Both the position numbers and the translations under genes were made by a program. A stretch of 28,079 bases of DNA. Source: a virus. The DNA lies in the IMG/VR virus record IMGVR_UViG_3300045008_000284, positions 1 to 28,079 of that record; one strand, 5' to 3'. A model generated the notes under the pieces. That model saw only the letters and a list, made by a program, of their open reading frames with translations. It was not told the origin of the DNA and made no database searches. Each line of letters starts with the position of its first letter. The stretch's first letter is position 1. Below, piece by piece: positions 1,053-15,622 of the stretch.

Positions 1053-3028
1053 TGGAACTGGAAGAATACGAAGGCGCGCTCGACATCGAACGAGCCTGGC
1101 GAGAGGGGCTCGTCCCGGATCCGCTGCTGTCGGTGTCCGAGTGGTCTGACCGGCATCGGATGCTGTCCTCGAAAGCCTCCTCGGAACCGGGGCGATGGCG
1201 CACCAGCCGCACCCCGTACCTGAAGGAGATCATGGACTGCCTGTCGCCGACCTCGCCGGTCGAGCGCGTGGTATTCATGAAGGCGGCCCAGTTGGGCGCG
1301 ACCGAGATGGGATCGAACTGGATCGGCTACGTGATTCACCACGCCCCCGGTCCGATGATGGCGGTCTGGCCGACCGTGGAAATGGCCAAACGCAACTCCA
1401 AGCAGCGGATCGATCCGCTGATCGAGGAGTCGCCCATCCTCAAAGAACTGATCGCGCCGGCCAGGAGCCGCGATTCGGGCAACACCATCCTGGCCAAGGA
1501 ATTCCGGGGCGGCGTGCTGGTGATGACCGGGGCCAACAGCGCGGTCGGCCTGCGCTCGATGCCGGTGCGTTACCTGTTTCTCGACGAGGTGGATGGTTAT
1601 CCGCTCGACGTCGATGGCGAGGGCAATGCTGTAGCCCTGGCCGAGGCTCGCACCCGAACCTTCGCGCGCCGGAAGATATTCATCGTATCGACGCCGACGA
1701 TTGCCGGCGTCAGCACCATCGAACGGGAATACGAGGCCAGTGACCAGCGACGCTTCTTCGTGCCGTGCCCGCACTGCGGTCACCGGCAATGGCTGCGCTT
1801 CGAGCAACTGCGCTGGGAGCGTGGCGAGAACGGTAATTTCCCGGAGACAGCGGCCTACGTCTGCGAGTCCTGCGAGGTTCCGATCCCGGAGCATCACAAG
1901 ACCTGGATGCTTGAGCATGGCGAGTGGCGTGCGATGGCCGAGGGAAGCAACCGCACTGCGGGGTTCCATCTGTCGTCGCTGTACAGCCCCATTGGCTGGC
2001 GCAGTTGGAAGGACATCGCGATTGCCTGGGAGCGTTCCATCAGCAAGGAATCCGGATCGTCAGCCGAGATCAAGACCTTCAAGAACACCGAACTCGGGGA
2101 AACCTGGGTCGAGGAAGGCGAAGCGCCCGACTGGCAGCGTCTGCTGGAACGGCGCGAGGACTATCGCATCGGCGCCGTGCCGGTCGGTGGCCTGTTGCTC
2201 ACCGCCGGTGCCGACATCCAGAAGGATCGGATCGAACTCTCGGTCTGGGCCTTCGGCCGGGGCAAGGAATCCTGGCTGGTCGAGCACCGCGTGCTGATGG
2301 GCGACACCGCACGCGACGAGGTGTGGAAATCCCTGGCGGCGGTCATGCGCGAGACCTGGACGCATGAGACCGGTTGCCAGATGCCGCTGGCGCGACTGGC
2401 GCTGGATACCGGTTTCGCCACGCAGGAAGCCTATGCGTTTGTCCGGTCGGTGCGGGATGCCCGGCTGATGGCCGTCAAAGGCGTGGCCCGTGGCGCGGCC
2501 CTGGTCGGCACGCCGACAGCCGTGGATGCCACGACCGGCGGCAAGAAACTGCGCCGAGGCATCAAGGTGTTCTCGGTGGCGGGCGGCATTGCCAAGCTGG
2601 AGTTCTACAACAACCTGCGCAAATCCCCGGAAGTCGCCGAGGACGGTGTGACGGTTCGCTATCCGGCCGGTTTCGTGCATCTGCCCAAGATCGATGCTGA
2701 GTATCTGCAGCAGCTGTGTGCCGAGCAACTGGTCACCCGGCGTGACCGGAATGGCTTCGCCATTCGTGAATGGCAGAAGATGCGCGAACGTAATGAGGCG
2801 CTGGACTGCTACGTCTATGCCCGGGCAGCGGCGACGGCTTCCGGCCTCGATCGCTTCGAGGACCGGCACTGGCGCGAACTTGAACGACAACTGGGACTGT
2901 CTCCACCGGAGAACGTTACTCAACAACCTACCGAGGCCACCGAATCCGGTGGCCATGTTGTTTCTGGAGCTCGTGGAGGATCTGAACGACCGGCCCGTCG
3001 CCTGATCCGCAGCCGTTGGCTCACATGA
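1052..3028 (+). CDS. Terminase large subunit, lambda GpA family
   Basis: This is the 658-aa ATPase and nuclease that pumps DNA into the prohead and cuts concatemers. Visible motifs are a Walker A-like KAAQLGATE (residues 77-85), a Walker B YLFLDEVD (174-181) and a VSTPT coupling motif (212-216). A possible zinc-binding pair of CxxC motifs follows (CPHC 239-242, CESC 271-274). The C-terminal nuclease region has acidic residues in AGADIQ (D388) and ALDTGF (D452). The length agrees with lambda gpA (641 aa). The start overlaps the small-subunit stop by one base. An upstream extension of the frame exists, but it lies inside the previous gene and is not homologous-looking. Confidence 0.96.
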   Translation: MELEEYEGALDIERAWREGLVPDPLLSVSEWSDRHRMLSSKASSEPGRWRTSRTPYLKEIMDCLSPTSPVERVVFMKAAQLGATEMGSNWIGYVIHHAPGPMMAVWPTVEMAKRNSKQRIDPLIEESPILKELIAPARSRDSGNTILAKEFRGGVLVMTGANSAVGLRSMPVRYLFLDEVDGYPLDVDGEGNAVALAEARTRTFARRKIFIVSTPTIAGVSTIEREYEASDQRRFFVPCPHCGHRQWLRFEQLRWERGENGNFPETAAYVCESCEVPIPEHHKTWMLEHGEWRAMAEGSNRTAGFHLSSLYSPIGWRSWKDIAIAWERSISKESGSSAEIKTFKNTELGETWVEEGEAPDWQRLLERREDYRIGAVPVGGLLLTAGADIQKDRIELSVWAFGRGKESWLVEHRVLMGDTARDEVWKSLAAVMRETWTHETGCQMPLARLALDTGFATQEAYAFVRSVRDARLMAVKGVARGAALVGTPTAVDATTGGKKLRRGIKVFSVAGGIAKLEFYNNLRKSPEVAEDGVTVRYPAGFVHLPKIDAEYLQQLCAEQLVTRRDRNGFAIREWQKMRERNEALDCYVYARAAATASGLDRFEDRHWRELERQLGLSPPENVTQQPTEATESGGHVVSGARGGSERPARRLIRSRWLT

Positions 3029-3037
3029 GGATGAAGC

Positions 3038-3400
3038 ATGAGCCTGCAGTCGCAATTGAACAGCTTCGTGACGCGGGTGGCCGAGATGTTTCAGCAGGTG
3101 GAGACGCGCACAGGAGCCCTCGATCGACTTAATACCTCAGCCAAGTCTGATCTGGTCACCGCGATCAACGAACTGGCCGCCCGCGAGATCGGCGGCGGAA
3201 GCAGCGGCGTGGCCTTCACCCACAGCCAGGTGTCGGCCGCGACGCTGTGGACCATCAACCACAACCTGGGATTTCGACCGTCGGTATCGATCCTCGATGC
3301 CGGCGGTAACGAGATCGAGGCCGACGTCGTGCATACCGGCCCGAACCAACTGGTCATCCACTTTGCCGTCCCGGTCGCCGGGGTGGCCCGACTTACGTAG
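3038..3400 (+). CDS. Small tail-fibre-like protein (120 aa)
   Basis: It has a short helical, probably coiled-coil N-terminus (about 1-48), a glycine hinge (GGGSSG near 53) and a compact beta domain. That domain contains TINHNLGFRPSVSILDAGGN (about 72-91), a form common at the ends of phage tail fibres and appendages. The start has a GAGG site 7 bases upstream. It is the first of three appendage-like genes inserted between the terminase and gpW; in lambda these genes are adjacent. Its C-terminal domain resembles that of the next gene, so the two are likely related by duplication. Receptor binding or fibre attachment is inferred from composition and domain style. Confidence 0.65.
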   Translation: MSLQSQLNSFVTRVAEMFQQVETRTGALDRLNTSAKSDLVTAINELAAREIGGGSSGVAFTHSQVSAATLWTINHNLGFRPSVSILDAGGNEIEADVVHTGPNQLVIHFAVPVAGVARLT

Positions 3401-10650: not shown

Positions 10651-11406
10651 ATGTCCTACTACGCATCCTTTCAAGGCCGGGTCTATCTCGGCGAACGCAA
10701 CGCCAATGGCGAGCCGATCAATGTCCGCACGCCGGGCAACGTGGCCGATCTGTCGCTGTCCCTCAAGACCGACGTGATCGAGCACTACGAGAGCCAGACC
10801 GGTCAGCGCGCCGTCGATCTGCGCCTGGTGAAACAGAAGTCCGCCACCGTTGCACTGACCATCGAGGAATTCACCAAAGAAAACCTCGCGCTCGCCCTCT
10901 ACGGCAACCACGAAACCGGTACCGGCGGCAGCGTCACCAACGAAGCCATTGGTGGTGCCACCCCTGTGGTTGGCGACCGCTACTTCCTCGCCCATCCCAA
11001 GGTCTCGGCCTTGTCGATTGTCGATTCAGCAGGCACGCCGGCTACATTGACGCTGGGCACGCATTACACGGCGGATGTGGATTTCGGCGCCATCCAGTTC
11101 CTTGATGTCACGGGCCTGACCGCTCCCTACAAGGCCAGCTATACCTTTGGCGCGGTGACCGAGATCGGCATTTTCACGCAGCCCTTGCCGGAGCGCTTCC
11201 TCCGTCTGGAAGGGGTGAACACCGCCGCCGGCAACGCCAAGGTGCTGATCGAACTCTACCGAGTGGCATTCGATCCTCTCAAAAAGTTCGACATCATCTC
11301 GAACGACCTCAACAAATTCGAACTGGAAGGTTCGCTGCTGGCGGATTCAACGAAACCATACGATGCGGTACTCGGCCAGTTCGGGCGCATCGTGCAATTG
11401 AGCTAA
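10651..11406 (+). CDS. Major tail tube protein
   Basis: This 251-aa protein is the probable tail tube subunit. It starts with SYYASFQGRVYLGERNANGE and contains DLSLSLKTDVIEHYESQTGQ, then LVKQKSATVALTIEEFTKEN. These are typical of the tube family that includes lambda gpV-like proteins, whose hexamer rings stack around the tape measure. The last third (KFDIISNDLNKFELEGSLLA) also fits the tube fold. An AAGGAG site lies 9 bases upstream. The tail chaperone genes follow, the usual siphovirus order. Confidence 0.85.
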   Translation: MSYYASFQGRVYLGERNANGEPINVRTPGNVADLSLSLKTDVIEHYESQTGQRAVDLRLVKQKSATVALTIEEFTKENLALALYGNHETGTGGSVTNEAIGGATPVVGDRYFLAHPKVSALSIVDSAGTPATLTLGTHYTADVDFGAIQFLDVTGLTAPYKASYTFGAVTEIGIFTQPLPERFLRLEGVNTAAGNAKVLIELYRVAFDPLKKFDIISNDLNKFELEGSLLADSTKPYDAVLGQFGRIVQLS

Positions 11407-11415
11407 GGGGCCGCC

Positions 11416-11850
11416 ATGACCGAGACTCGATTTGATGCCTTGCCGCCGGTGCCTACCGCGCTCGTGGTGGGCGGCGAAGCCCTGGAAATCACGCCGCTCA
11501 AGGTTGGCGAACTGCCGGCTTTCGCCAGGGCGGTACGTTCGATCGCCAGCAAAGTCACGTCCGATCCGGACTGGTTGTGTTTGCTCTCTGAAGACGGCGA
11601 ATCCGTCATCCTGGCATTGGCCATTGCCTGCCGCCGTCCGCCCGACTGGGTGGCCGCGCTGGCACTGGACGACGCGATTCGTCTGGCTGAAGCCATCTTC
11701 GGGGCGAATGCCAATTTTTTTATCCAGCGCGTGGTGCCCGCCATCACACAAATGAGCACGCGGGTCGGTCAGCAGATCCCGAGTCTGATCCCTGGGGTGA
11801 TGCCATTACCCGGCTCCTCGGGGCCGGACACACCTACGCTGACATCCTGA
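11416..11850 (+). CDS. Tail assembly chaperone, G product
   Basis: This is the unshifted product of the tail chaperone pair (144 aa). Its helical core (about 20-105) includes ITPLKVGELPAFARAVRSIA and the segment LALDDAIRLAEAIFGANANF. Such proteins coat the tape measure and recruit tube subunits. The reading frame contains a T-TTT-TTT slippery heptamer at codons 100-102, after which this short form continues for 42 residues rich in Pro, Gly and Ser. An AAGGGG site precedes the ATG. Position between tail tube and tape measure is diagnostic. Confidence 0.85.
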   Translation: MTETRFDALPPVPTALVVGGEALEITPLKVGELPAFARAVRSIASKVTSDPDWLCLLSEDGESVILALAIACRRPPDWVAALALDDAIRLAEAIFGANANFFIQRVVPAITQMSTRVGQQIPSLIPGVMPLPGSSGPDTPTLTS

Positions 11851-11999
11851 ACTACACGCTGGCGCAGGTGCGGGCCTTCCTTGCCGCCAGTGACCGTGCG
11901 GAGCGCGACCGTCTGGCGGTCCAGTTCGCCCTGATGCTGACCGCGACGCGCGGCGGTAGTGCCGAGATCAAGGCGGTGCAGAAGGAACTGGCATCATGA
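11416..11999 (+). CDS. Tail assembly chaperone, G-T fusion made by -1 frameshift
   Basis: Slipping back one base at 11715-11721 joins the first 102 codons of G to a second frame resuming at 11721 and ending at the TGA 11997-11999, giving about 194 aa. The shifted frame is open throughout and encodes a plausible helical domain: GDAITRLLGAGHTYADILNY, then LAQVRAFLAASDRAERDRLA and AEIKAVQKELAS. It has no good independent start codon with a binding site, which supports translation only as a fusion. In lambda, the GT fusion binds tube subunits through its T part. The next gene starts in the fusion stop (ATGA), which further supports use of this frame. Confidence 0.85.
11715..11721 (+). promoter_or_regulatory. 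Programmed -1 ribosomal frameshift site
   Basis: Seven consecutive T form an exact X-XXY-YYZ heptamer (T TTT TTT) in the G reading frame (AAT TTT TTT ATC). A possible stem follows: GTGGTG (11731-11736) can pair with CATCAC (11742-11747) around a 5-base loop, 9 bases downstream. An alternative longer-range stem is CGCGTG (11728-11733) with CACGCG (11757-11762). Spacing of 6-9 bases is normal for frameshift stimulators. Efficiency cannot be judged from sequence. Confidence 0.85.
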
Positions 12000-12649
12000 A
12001 GTTGTCACTGACCACCTCGGGACTGCTCGATCCGAAACGGCTCGACAGCTGGATTCCGGAGAAACGCCGGGCGATCCGCAAGGCCGTGGAGGCCGGCATG
12101 AAGTCGGCTGGCAAGGAGATTGCACAGACCGTGCAGGCGCGCATGCAAGCCGCGTTCAAGGTCAGGAAGGCCGGCTTCGTGCGCTCGATGCGGCACAAGC
12201 TCTACGCTGGCAGCCCGGAGAAGTTTCCGGCGCTGTTGATCGGCTCGAAGATCCCCTGGCTTGGCATTCATATGCGGGGCGGCACGATTGCCGGACGGAT
12301 GCTGATTCCCTTGCTGCCCGAGCATCAGCGCCTGGGCCGCAAGGCCTTCCGCCGCGTCATCGATGGCCTGATGCGCGCCGGCAACGCCTTCTTCATTCAG
12401 AAGTCTGGCCGCGTGATCCTGATGGCCGAAGCGATCAAGGAGAACACCTCTGAATTGCGCCGCTTCAAGCGAGCCGAGCGGGGGCGTACCGGTGCGAAGT
12501 CCATCAAGCGCGGCCAGGAGATTCCGATTGCCGTGCTGATGTCCTCTGTCACCTTGCGCGGCCGGCTGGATCTGAGCGGCATTGTCCGTTCACAACTACC
12601 GAAATTAACGACTTCCATCCTGCAGCAACTGAACACACAAGGTTTATAA
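11996..12649 (+). CDS. Minor tail protein, possibly DUF6441-type (217 aa)
   Basis: This basic 217-aa protein begins MKLSLTTSGLLDPKRLDSWI and has long amphipathic helices (KRRAIRKAVEAGMKSAGKEI, 22-41). A middle part, GSKIPWLGIHMRGGTIAGRM (about 83-102), then leads to LLPEHQRLGR. That layout recalls DUF6441-like proteins encoded between the tail chaperones and the tape measure in many phages; my match is from memory of the pattern and not certain. It starts inside the GT stop (ATGA). The role is probably structural in tail assembly. Confidence 0.65.
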   Translation: MKLSLTTSGLLDPKRLDSWIPEKRRAIRKAVEAGMKSAGKEIAQTVQARMQAAFKVRKAGFVRSMRHKLYAGSPEKFPALLIGSKIPWLGIHMRGGTIAGRMLIPLLPEHQRLGRKAFRRVIDGLMRAGNAFFIQKSGRVILMAEAIKENTSELRRFKRAERGRTGAKSIKRGQEIPIAVLMSSVTLRGRLDLSGIVRSQLPKLTTSILQQLNTQGL

Positions 12650-12652
12650 GCC

Positions 12653-15622
12653 GTGGCCTCTGACCGTGCCCAGATCCTGATCACTGCCGTCGACCAGACC
12701 CGGTCGGCGCTCGCCCAGGTCAAGGCCAACCTCGAAGGTCTGTCTGTCGCCGCCAGCAAGGTCAATGGCGTGCTGGCCGGCCTGGGTGCGGCGCTGTCGC
12801 TCGGTGCCCTGGTGGCTGCCGGCAAGGCGGCTCTCGACACCGCAGACAATCTCTCCAAGCTGTCGCAGAAAACCGGTATCTCGGTCGAGTCGCTGTCGCT
12901 GCTGAAGCCCATCGCCGAGCAGTCCGGCATCTCGTTGGAGGGACTGGCCAAGGGCATGCAGAAGCTGGCGACCGCGATGGTCGAGGCGGCAGGTGGATCG
13001 AAGGAACAGGTCGAGGCCTTCAGCCGGCTGGGCGTCTCGGTCAAGGATGCCGCCGGTCAGCTGCGCCCGACTGAAGATGTCTTGCTGGACCTGGCCGATG
13101 CCTTCGCCGCGATGCCGGACGGCGCCGAGAAGTCGGCACTGGCGGTGAAGCTCTTTGGCAAGAGTGGCGTCGAACTGATTCCCTTCCTCAACCAGGGGCG
13201 GGCCGGCATCGAGGAACTCAAGCAGAAGTTCAAGGAACTCGGCCTCGAGATCAGTGGTGATACCGCCAAGGCCGCCGAGAAGTTCAACGATACGCTCGAC
13301 ACCGTCAAGCAGGCCCTGTCGGCCATCGCCATGAAGGTCGCCGAGGCGGCGTTGCCAGCCTTGCAGTCTCTGGCCGATGGTCTGGTCAAAATCGCCAGTC
13401 ACGGCGAAGAAATCATGACCGTGCTGCGCGTACTCGGTGAAGTGATCGTCACGGTGCTGGCCGTGCGCGGTGTGGCGGCGGTCGCGGCCCTGGGTGGCGC
13501 GGTGACGGCATTGAAGACCGTCCTGATGCGCTTCCTGCCGGTACTTGCCGCTGTCGCCGTCTGGGAGATGGGCCGGGGCATCGTCAAGATGGTCGAGGAC
13601 ATCCGGGCGACCAACAAGGCGATAGATGATCTGAATCGGCAACGTCAGCAGTTGCAGCAGCTGACGGCGGCCATGGAGGAACTCGCCAACACCGGCACCC
13701 TGAGCGTCAAAACCCAGATGATGCTGGCGGCACAAGCCGCCGAACGCCTGAAGTCGGCACTGCCGGCTACGGCTGATGCACTGCGCGTCATCCAGGGTGC
13801 CGCCACCCAGGCCGGCGAAGCGATCCGGCAGGCGCTCGACGCCGAAACCAAGAAGGCCGCCGAGACGGTCAAGCAACTGTCGGCCAGCTACAAGCAGGTC
13901 GCCGCCGACATCAAGGCGATCTGGGATGCCCGCGTTGCCGAGATCGAGTCCAACTACAAGCGGCAGGAAGCGGCCGCGCAGAATGCGGCGCGCTCCGAGT
14001 CGGCGGCGATTCGCGAGTCCGCGCAGAATCTCCTCACCGCCGAGCGCGAAAAGCTCGCCGCCGTCGAGGCGGGTGCCAAGCAGATGGAGTCGGCCTGGAA
14101 GGCCACCTATGGCCAGGCCGTGGTGCTCGCCCGTGCCGCAGGCCAGGACATGCAGGCGATCGAGCGGCAGGCGGTCGAGGCGCGCATCGCCATCTACAGC
14201 CAGCTGGAATCGGCCTATCGCGCCACGGTCGATCGACTCATCGCCGAAGAGCAGCGCCATCTGCAGGCCGCCAAAGCAGCCGATGAGGCACGCCTCAACC
14301 TGCGCCTGTCGGTCGAGGATCGCATTCGTGAACTATCCCGCAAGGGCATGGATGAGTATGCGGCCTACCAGGACCGGCTGCGCCAGATCGATGAGAAGCA
14401 GGCACAGGCGCGTACCGCGCTTGCGGCCGGCAACTACGAGCAGGCCCGCAAACTGGCCGAGGAAGCGATCGCCCTGGCCGAACGCACCGCCTCGGCGGTG
14501 ACCCGACAGGTCGAGCAGAACGGCAAGACCGTGACCCAGACGGTGGTGTCCGAGGGCCAGGCCGCCGCCACTGCGATTGGTGAGATCAAGGAAGCAGCCG
14601 GCATTGCCGATGCGGCACTCAAAGGGTTGGGTGATGCGCACAAGCAGGCAGCAACCGCTGCAGGGGCCGGCGCCGATGAAGCCAAGCGTGCCCTGGCGTC
14701 CGTGTCCGATGAACTCGACAAACTGCGCCAGCAACTGCTCACCCAGGACAAGCTCAAGCTCGACGTCGATATCGAGGCCGCCAAGACCGGCATCGAGAAG
14801 ATCAAGGCGCTGACCGAGGCACTGGAACTGGTGGCCAAGATCCAGGCAGACACCAAGGAAGCACAGTCCTCACTGGAAAAGCTCAAGTCAGACGCTGACA
14901 ATCTGGAACTGCTGGCCAAGGTCGAAGCCGACACCAGCAAGGCGATCGCTGACATCGATCAACTCAAGAGCACGCTGGCCAGCGCCAAGGTCGACATTCC
15001 GGCCACCGTGTCCTTCGATCAACCCCGCCAGCAACTCGCTTCGTTTGCACAGGATGCCAAGACGGTGCTGTCGGCCCCGACCTCTGCCACCCACACCGTC
15101 CAGCCGGATCTGAATCAGTTTCGGGCAGCGGTCTCTGAACTGCTGCGGCCGACGTCTAGCAATCACACAATCTACGTCACCAAGGTCTATACCAATGCCC
15201 AGGGTGGCCTGATCCAGAAACTGGCGGAAGGTGGTCAGGCCATTTCAACCATGGCCACAGGCTTCCGCCGTATGGCCGGGCGGATTACCGGGCCTGGCAC
15301 GGAGACCTCCGACTCGGTCCCGGCCTTGCTGTCGCATGGCGAATTCGTCATCCGGGCCGCCAGCGTGCGCAAATTCGGCGAGAGTTTCTTTGCTTCGCTC
15401 AACGCCGGCTTCCTGCCGGCCGTGCCACGATTTGCGCTGGGTGGCGCGGTGGGCAATACGGTCAGCCAGGTCGCCATGATGGCGGGTGACTCGGGAGAAC
15501 CGACCCGCGATGTAATTGATCTGCGCTTCAACGTCGGCGGCAAGGCGCACACCGTACAGTCCTCGCGCCAGACGGCCATGCAACTGGCGCAGGCCCTGCG
15601 CGAACTGTCGCGGGGGGCGTGA
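12653..15622 (+). CDS. Tail tape measure protein (989 aa)
   Basis: This is the largest gene and encodes a mostly helical, Ala/Gln/Lys/Glu-rich protein that sets tail length and is ejected into the host. The N-terminal part (1-250) includes ADNLSKLSQKTGISVESLSL, typical of tape measures. A hydrophobic stretch (about 253-305) could insert in the inner membrane. The central region (about 310-690) is coiled coil. A tandem repeat lies near 724-777, and a Gly-rich C-terminal motif (SDSVPALLSHGEFVIRAASV) is common to the family. At roughly 1.5 angstrom per residue, the tail would be near 150 nm. The start is GTG at 12653; the stop overlaps the next ATG (TGATG). Confidence 0.95.
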   Translation: MASDRAQILITAVDQTRSALAQVKANLEGLSVAASKVNGVLAGLGAALSLGALVAAGKAALDTADNLSKLSQKTGISVESLSLLKPIAEQSGISLEGLAKGMQKLATAMVEAAGGSKEQVEAFSRLGVSVKDAAGQLRPTEDVLLDLADAFAAMPDGAEKSALAVKLFGKSGVELIPFLNQGRAGIEELKQKFKELGLEISGDTAKAAEKFNDTLDTVKQALSAIAMKVAEAALPALQSLADGLVKIASHGEEIMTVLRVLGEVIVTVLAVRGVAAVAALGGAVTALKTVLMRFLPVLAAVAVWEMGRGIVKMVEDIRATNKAIDDLNRQRQQLQQLTAAMEELANTGTLSVKTQMMLAAQAAERLKSALPATADALRVIQGAATQAGEAIRQALDAETKKAAETVKQLSASYKQVAADIKAIWDARVAEIESNYKRQEAAAQNAARSESAAIRESAQNLLTAEREKLAAVEAGAKQMESAWKATYGQAVVLARAAGQDMQAIERQAVEARIAIYSQLESAYRATVDRLIAEEQRHLQAAKAADEARLNLRLSVEDRIRELSRKGMDEYAAYQDRLRQIDEKQAQARTALAAGNYEQARKLAEEAIALAERTASAVTRQVEQNGKTVTQTVVSEGQAAATAIGEIKEAAGIADAALKGLGDAHKQAATAAGAGADEAKRALASVSDELDKLRQQLLTQDKLKLDVDIEAAKTGIEKIKALTEALELVAKIQADTKEAQSSLEKLKSDADNLELLAKVEADTSKAIADIDQLKSTLASAKVDIPATVSFDQPRQQLASFAQDAKTVLSAPTSATHTVQPDLNQFRAAVSELLRPTSSNHTIYVTKVYTNAQGGLIQKLAEGGQAISTMATGFRRMAGRITGPGTETSDSVPALLSHGEFVIRAASVRKFGESFFASLNAGFLPAVPRFALGGAVGNTVSQVAMMAGDSGEPTRDVIDLRFNVGGKAHTVQSSRQTAMQLAQALRELSRGA
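14822..14983 (+). repeat. Tandem 27-residue coding repeat in the tape measure gene
   Basis: Two adjacent 81-base units (14822-14902 and 14903-14983) encode LELVAKIQADTKEAQSSLEK... and LELLAKVEADTSKAIADIDQ.... They differ mainly by conservative changes. A third, more degenerate unit precedes them (LKLDVDIEAAKTGIEKIKAL). The period is divisible by three, so unit gain or loss would change tail length without breaking the frame. Confidence 0.75.

Follow-up and report, generated by a model that had tools for sequence, protein, structure and literature searches.

Translation of the tail assembly chaperone gene G very probably includes a programmed -1 frameshift at T_TTT_TTT, which, judging from the sequence, would make a G-T tail-chaperone fusion. 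We analysed one DNA stretch of 28,079 nucleotides, here called the window, together with its relatives. Observed directly were the frame geometry of the site, its conservation, codon and phase selection, the protein families and the gene order. The features of the window used below are as follows.

10651..11406, + strand: tail tube (major tail) protein, directly 5' of G (phrog_807; NF052337, E 1.3e-59)
11416..11850, + strand: G, tail assembly chaperone, 144 aa, frame 0 (phrog_1442, E 5.4e-27)
11701..11704, + strand: Shine-Dalgarno-like GGGG, probable upstream stimulator, 10 nt before the slippery run
11715..11721, + strand: slippery heptamer T_TTT_TTT, in phase with G and conserved in relatives
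11721..11999, + strand: T part, 92 residues, without a full-length start codon (phrog_13355, phrog_14432)
11722..11766, + strand: downstream stretch with alternative stems, unsupported as a conserved stimulator
11996..12649, + strand: next gene, DUF6441 (PF20039, E 1.5e-82)
12653..15622, + strand: tape measure protein, 3' (several tape measure families)

The ORF of G (11416-11850, + strand) starts with an ATG at 11416, stops at 11848-11850 and gives a product of 144 aa. Its codons at 11713-11724 are AAT, TTT, TTT and ATC, which puts T_TTT_TTT (11715-11721) precisely in the phase of G. No stop interrupts the -1 frame between 11690 and a TGA at 11997-11999. After a -1 shift, reading would resume with TAT at 11721 and continue for 92 residues to this TGA, and the resulting G-T fusion of 194 aa would end at 11999. 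Within the window, the T frame contains no ORF of at least 60 aa with its own start, and all T-frame start codons lie within or 3' of the conserved core. The initial annotation had placed the heptamer in frame, had followed the shifted frame to 11999 and had considered the 92-residue T part to be without a usable start. All three statements agree with the codon phase of the 144-aa ORF, the extent of the -1 frame and the search of the T frame.

The heptamer is the sole T7 on both strands of the window. At least one T7 per 28 kb was obtained in 32 of 100 shuffles, and the chance of a T7 falling both in phase and into the stretch of about 160 nt that is open in two frames was inferred to be about 0.2% (160/28079 x 1/3). 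Since the site is kept in relatives, chance is removed altogether.

Relatives were gathered mostly via the T domain, so this sample was not selected for the T run. An in-phase run of at least six T was observed at the same codon position in 108 distinct loci of the T-collected sample; in these the -1 frame stays free of stops into a helical domain that is itself conserved. Reduced to less than 85% nucleotide identity, these loci gave 49 representatives, with the heptamer T_TTT_TTT in 31, T_TTT_TTC in 16 and T_TTT_TTG in 2. A second sample was collected by G alone. The run was found in 73/73 distinct genes of this sample, and the shifted frame extended for at least 94 residues in 71 of them, while the remaining two lie on short contigs that end within the frame. 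The textbook -1 frameshift and G-T fusion described in the initial annotation are supported by both samples, with one exception. To the question raised there, of relatives with stops in the shifted frame or with a broken T run, the answer was that run and shifted frame are kept together, and that L026 alone departs from this. In L026 (also L152), at 2633-3204, GAC TAT TTC replaces the run and the T domain is intact in the -1 frame, which counts against frameshifting at the run. There was no evident substitute for the run in L026/L152. An AAGGT element is still present 5' in these loci despite the broken run. Loci scored as having a -2/+1 shift turned out to be errors of ORF picking, save L026, which is without the run. 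Searches of cultured phages by tblastn gave no match for G of the window and distant Pseudomonas phages for T; a protein profile of all G was too diverse for scanning.

We observed selection on the nucleotides of the site as well. Across the 49 representatives the codon preceding the run always ends in T, for Asp, Asn, Ser, Arg and Gly alike; Asp in this position is encoded by GAT in 42/42 cases, compared with 36% elsewhere in these genes. The first Phe codon of the run is TTT in 49/49, while the background value is 27% and TTC is usual. Runs of six or more T occur elsewhere in these loci 5 times per 234 kb. In the two clades tested, variation falls on the third positions of frame-0 codons until about 40 nt past the site. 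Between 41 and 80 nt past the site neither frame is clearly constrained, and this stretch is a linker in both products. Beyond 80 nt it moves to the third positions of -1 frame codons, and this is clear past the stop of G.

A homopolymer run, such as the one at this site, could also make RNA polymerase slip, and the fusion would then be translated normally from mRNAs with one extra U. Nine T are present at the site in L025. However, 18/49 representatives have six T alone, and programmed transcriptional realignment was described for T runs longer than eight (PMC3711429), therefore the six-T members do not fit slippage by the polymerase. The fixed phase of the heptamer, the T at its first base and the Shine-Dalgarno-like element at a set spacing point to the ribosome, not to the polymerase. 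We consider slippage of the polymerase very unlikely, and -1 frameshifting by the ribosome is retained.

The protein families and neighbouring genes are those of a tail chaperone pair. The gene order is tail tube, G/T, DUF6441 gene, tape measure, and two overlapping ORFs sit between the tail tube and tape measure genes, as the G/GT type requires. A match of G to PF20336 (DUF6631) was under the family cut-off. The T part matched two families of unknown function, phrog_13355 (E 2e-13) and phrog_14432 (E 8.6e-6). Residues 47-192 of the fusion are collinear with positions 45-188 of 191 of phrog_14432, a sign that uninterrupted G-T proteins are already among the entries of that database. In the predicted model of G (mean pLDDT 79) helices follow a beta hairpin. 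The model of T is helical past its first 14 residues, which are of low confidence (mean pLDDT 76.6), in line with the helical domain that had been expected for T. The top hit of the G model in VIA-align was the HK97 tail assembly chaperone 2ob9, a weak one (Z 3.8 over 85 residues). We did not observe any significant match of the G model to PDB or any match of the T model to viral models with Foldseek, and PDB sequences searched with a profile of G gave no meaningful match. The next gene had been described as coupled to the shifted stop. Its ATG at 11996 does overlap the T stop (TGA, 11997-11999); but the gene has its own AAGGA at 11982-11986, nine bases 5' of the ATG, so coupling is possible and unnecessary.

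T might instead be a separate protein initiated inside the overlap, with no fusion made. Records of three phages annotate T as a truncated hypothetical ORF, a short one in the T frame with an internal start, namely SM1 (L030:3055-3324), DLP_5 (L169:2154-2276) and QH16 (L171:2055-2204). In the pAN record (L031:2965-3231) T is unannotated. A 'tape measure chaperone frameshift product' is already annotated for HXX_Dennis and Summit. In the window such a start would lie within or past the conserved core, in a frame lacking an ORF of the length given above, and internal initiation explains neither why the T run is under selection nor why a fused family, phrog_14432, is collinear with G-T. We regard it as even less probable than slippage of the polymerase. 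An unrelated T run with a frame that is open by accident, or one gene split by a sequencing error, is the least credible explanation of all. In its favour, the window comes from a metagenomic virus record and one T7 per 28 kb is not rare. Against it, the same site recurs in cultured phages, in bacterial genomes and in metagenomes independent of each other, and there is codon-phase selection in both frames.

With the -1 frameshift as the preferred explanation, we compared candidate stimulators on both sides of the run. The initial annotation had included two alternative stems, 6-9 bases downstream, in the signal. Both can be drawn in the window sequence. The downstream RNA of the window did not fold better than dinucleotide shuffles (z 0.0, +0.96 and +1.1), therefore these stems are not above chance. 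The mean over the representatives was no lower than in control stretches (-0.14 and -0.38, respectively), and RNAalifold returned zero consensus pairs for the downstream region. Covariation in the single plausible stem of close relatives was not above shuffles, and two pairs of this stem are broken in the window. We found no support for the stems as a conserved stimulator, as they fold no better than shuffles and show no covariation.

On the upstream side there is a Shine-Dalgarno-like element that the initial annotation had overlooked; the window has GGGG where relatives mostly have GAGG, and the pairing of GGGG with the anti-Shine-Dalgarno sequence was calculated as -5.1 kcal/mol. Among the 49 representatives, anti-Shine-Dalgarno affinity peaks with its core 10 nt 5' of the run (mean -6.8 kcal/mol), compared with a mean of -1.4 kcal/mol (sd 0.57) elsewhere in the genes. 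Values of -4 kcal/mol or better were found in 40/49 representatives and at 19% of background positions. The codon at this site ends in G in 48/49, whichever amino acid it encodes. Resampling of synonymous codons at the site gave z = -4.9; control positions ranged from -3.1 to +3.5, so this test alone is of moderate weight. The position of the element is strongly conserved. The nine representatives with a weak element had a better downstream fold (p = 0.02, uncorrected for relatedness), and an exchange with hairpins is suggested. In HXX_Dennis (L168:1980-2013) a strong GC hairpin directly follows the T6 run and the Shine-Dalgarno element is weak. A similar GC-rich stem can be drawn in QH16 (L171:1911-1947), yet it folds no better than shuffles. 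It is possible that the stems of these two phages represent an exchange of one stimulator for another. As far as sequence alone can tell, the upstream element is a better candidate stimulator than the downstream stems. In this phage lineage the main stimulator of frameshifting may be an internal Shine-Dalgarno element kept 10 nt from the run, with a downstream hairpin in its place in branches that lost it; this is a tentative proposal which we judge to have somewhat less than an even chance.

Fusion of two tail chaperones by a -1 frameshift is conserved widely among tailed phages (review PMC5009743). A homologous T domain and a T6C or T7 run in the same place and gene position are present in Xanthomonas phage HXX_Dennis and Stenotrophomonas phage Summit, which are distant from the window in sequence. 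Lambda gpG/gpGT has the same gene order, a C-terminal T extension and a -1 shift close to the G terminus. As had been pointed out, its heptamer is different (G_GGA_AAG, compared with T_TTT_TTT in the window). We did not find a significant sequence match of the G and T of the window to lambda gpG and gpT, which does not exclude kinship because chaperones diverge too fast, or any Shine-Dalgarno-like element at 10-nt spacing in lambda.

The all-T run itself is not unusual, as similar runs are known from P2 and its relatives. P2 E/E+E' uses T_TTT_TTG (PMC3091744, PMC3931495), with no downstream hairpin reported (PMC3091744). Like the window, P2 E/E' has an all-T run, a -1 shift and a startless second frame just before the tape measure gene; unlike the window, in which no sheath gene was found among the genes searched, P2 has a contractile tail. 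Comparison of the window protein with P2 gpE by hhalign was not significant (probability 0.6%, E 0.089 over 20 columns); these columns cover the helix immediately 5' of the slip site in both. In P2 E/E' (L174:860-885) a Shine-Dalgarno-like AAGGTGG stands shortly before T6G. Smp131 and xanthomonad P2-like prophages reportedly have T7G or T7C in their tail assembly genes (PMC3931495), a seven-T run like that of the window; but they are P2-like myophages. The -1 frameshift of E. coli dnaX combines a homopolymeric site with an upstream Shine-Dalgarno-like stimulator (PMC3711429), like the window. Unlike the window, dnaX is a cellular gene with a run of A encoding lysine and with a downstream hairpin within the signal. 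In E. coli constructs U_UUU_UUU was reported to be less shift-prone than A_AAA_AAG (PMC5009743), which counts against frameshifting at this run.

The proposed sequence of events is as follows. A minority of ribosomes on G would slip back one base with the two TTT (Phe) codons in the P and A sites, and both Phe tRNAs would re-pair with TTT in the -1 frame. GGGG, 10 nt 5', would pair with 16S rRNA and probably promote the slip. The majority of ribosomes would make the 144-aa G, and the remainder the 194-aa G-T. By analogy with lambda, the tape measure protein may carry a coat of many G and a few G-T, and tail tube subunits may be recruited by the T part. We infer frameshifting itself, its efficiency, its stimulation by the Shine-Dalgarno element and the roles of G and G-T.

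In summary, the mechanism is already known from lambda G/GT, P2 E/E' and Smp131 T7G, and there is nothing new in it. What follows for this lineage is a correction of annotation, as records often lack the T half or truncate it, and names can now be given to phrog_13355 (the T part) and phrog_14432 (the G-T fusion). The lineage also offers a large natural set of sites in which to study the tuning of a required protein ratio by an upstream Shine-Dalgarno element. If this element is the main stimulator, pairing between mRNA and 16S rRNA would set the ratio of G to G-T.
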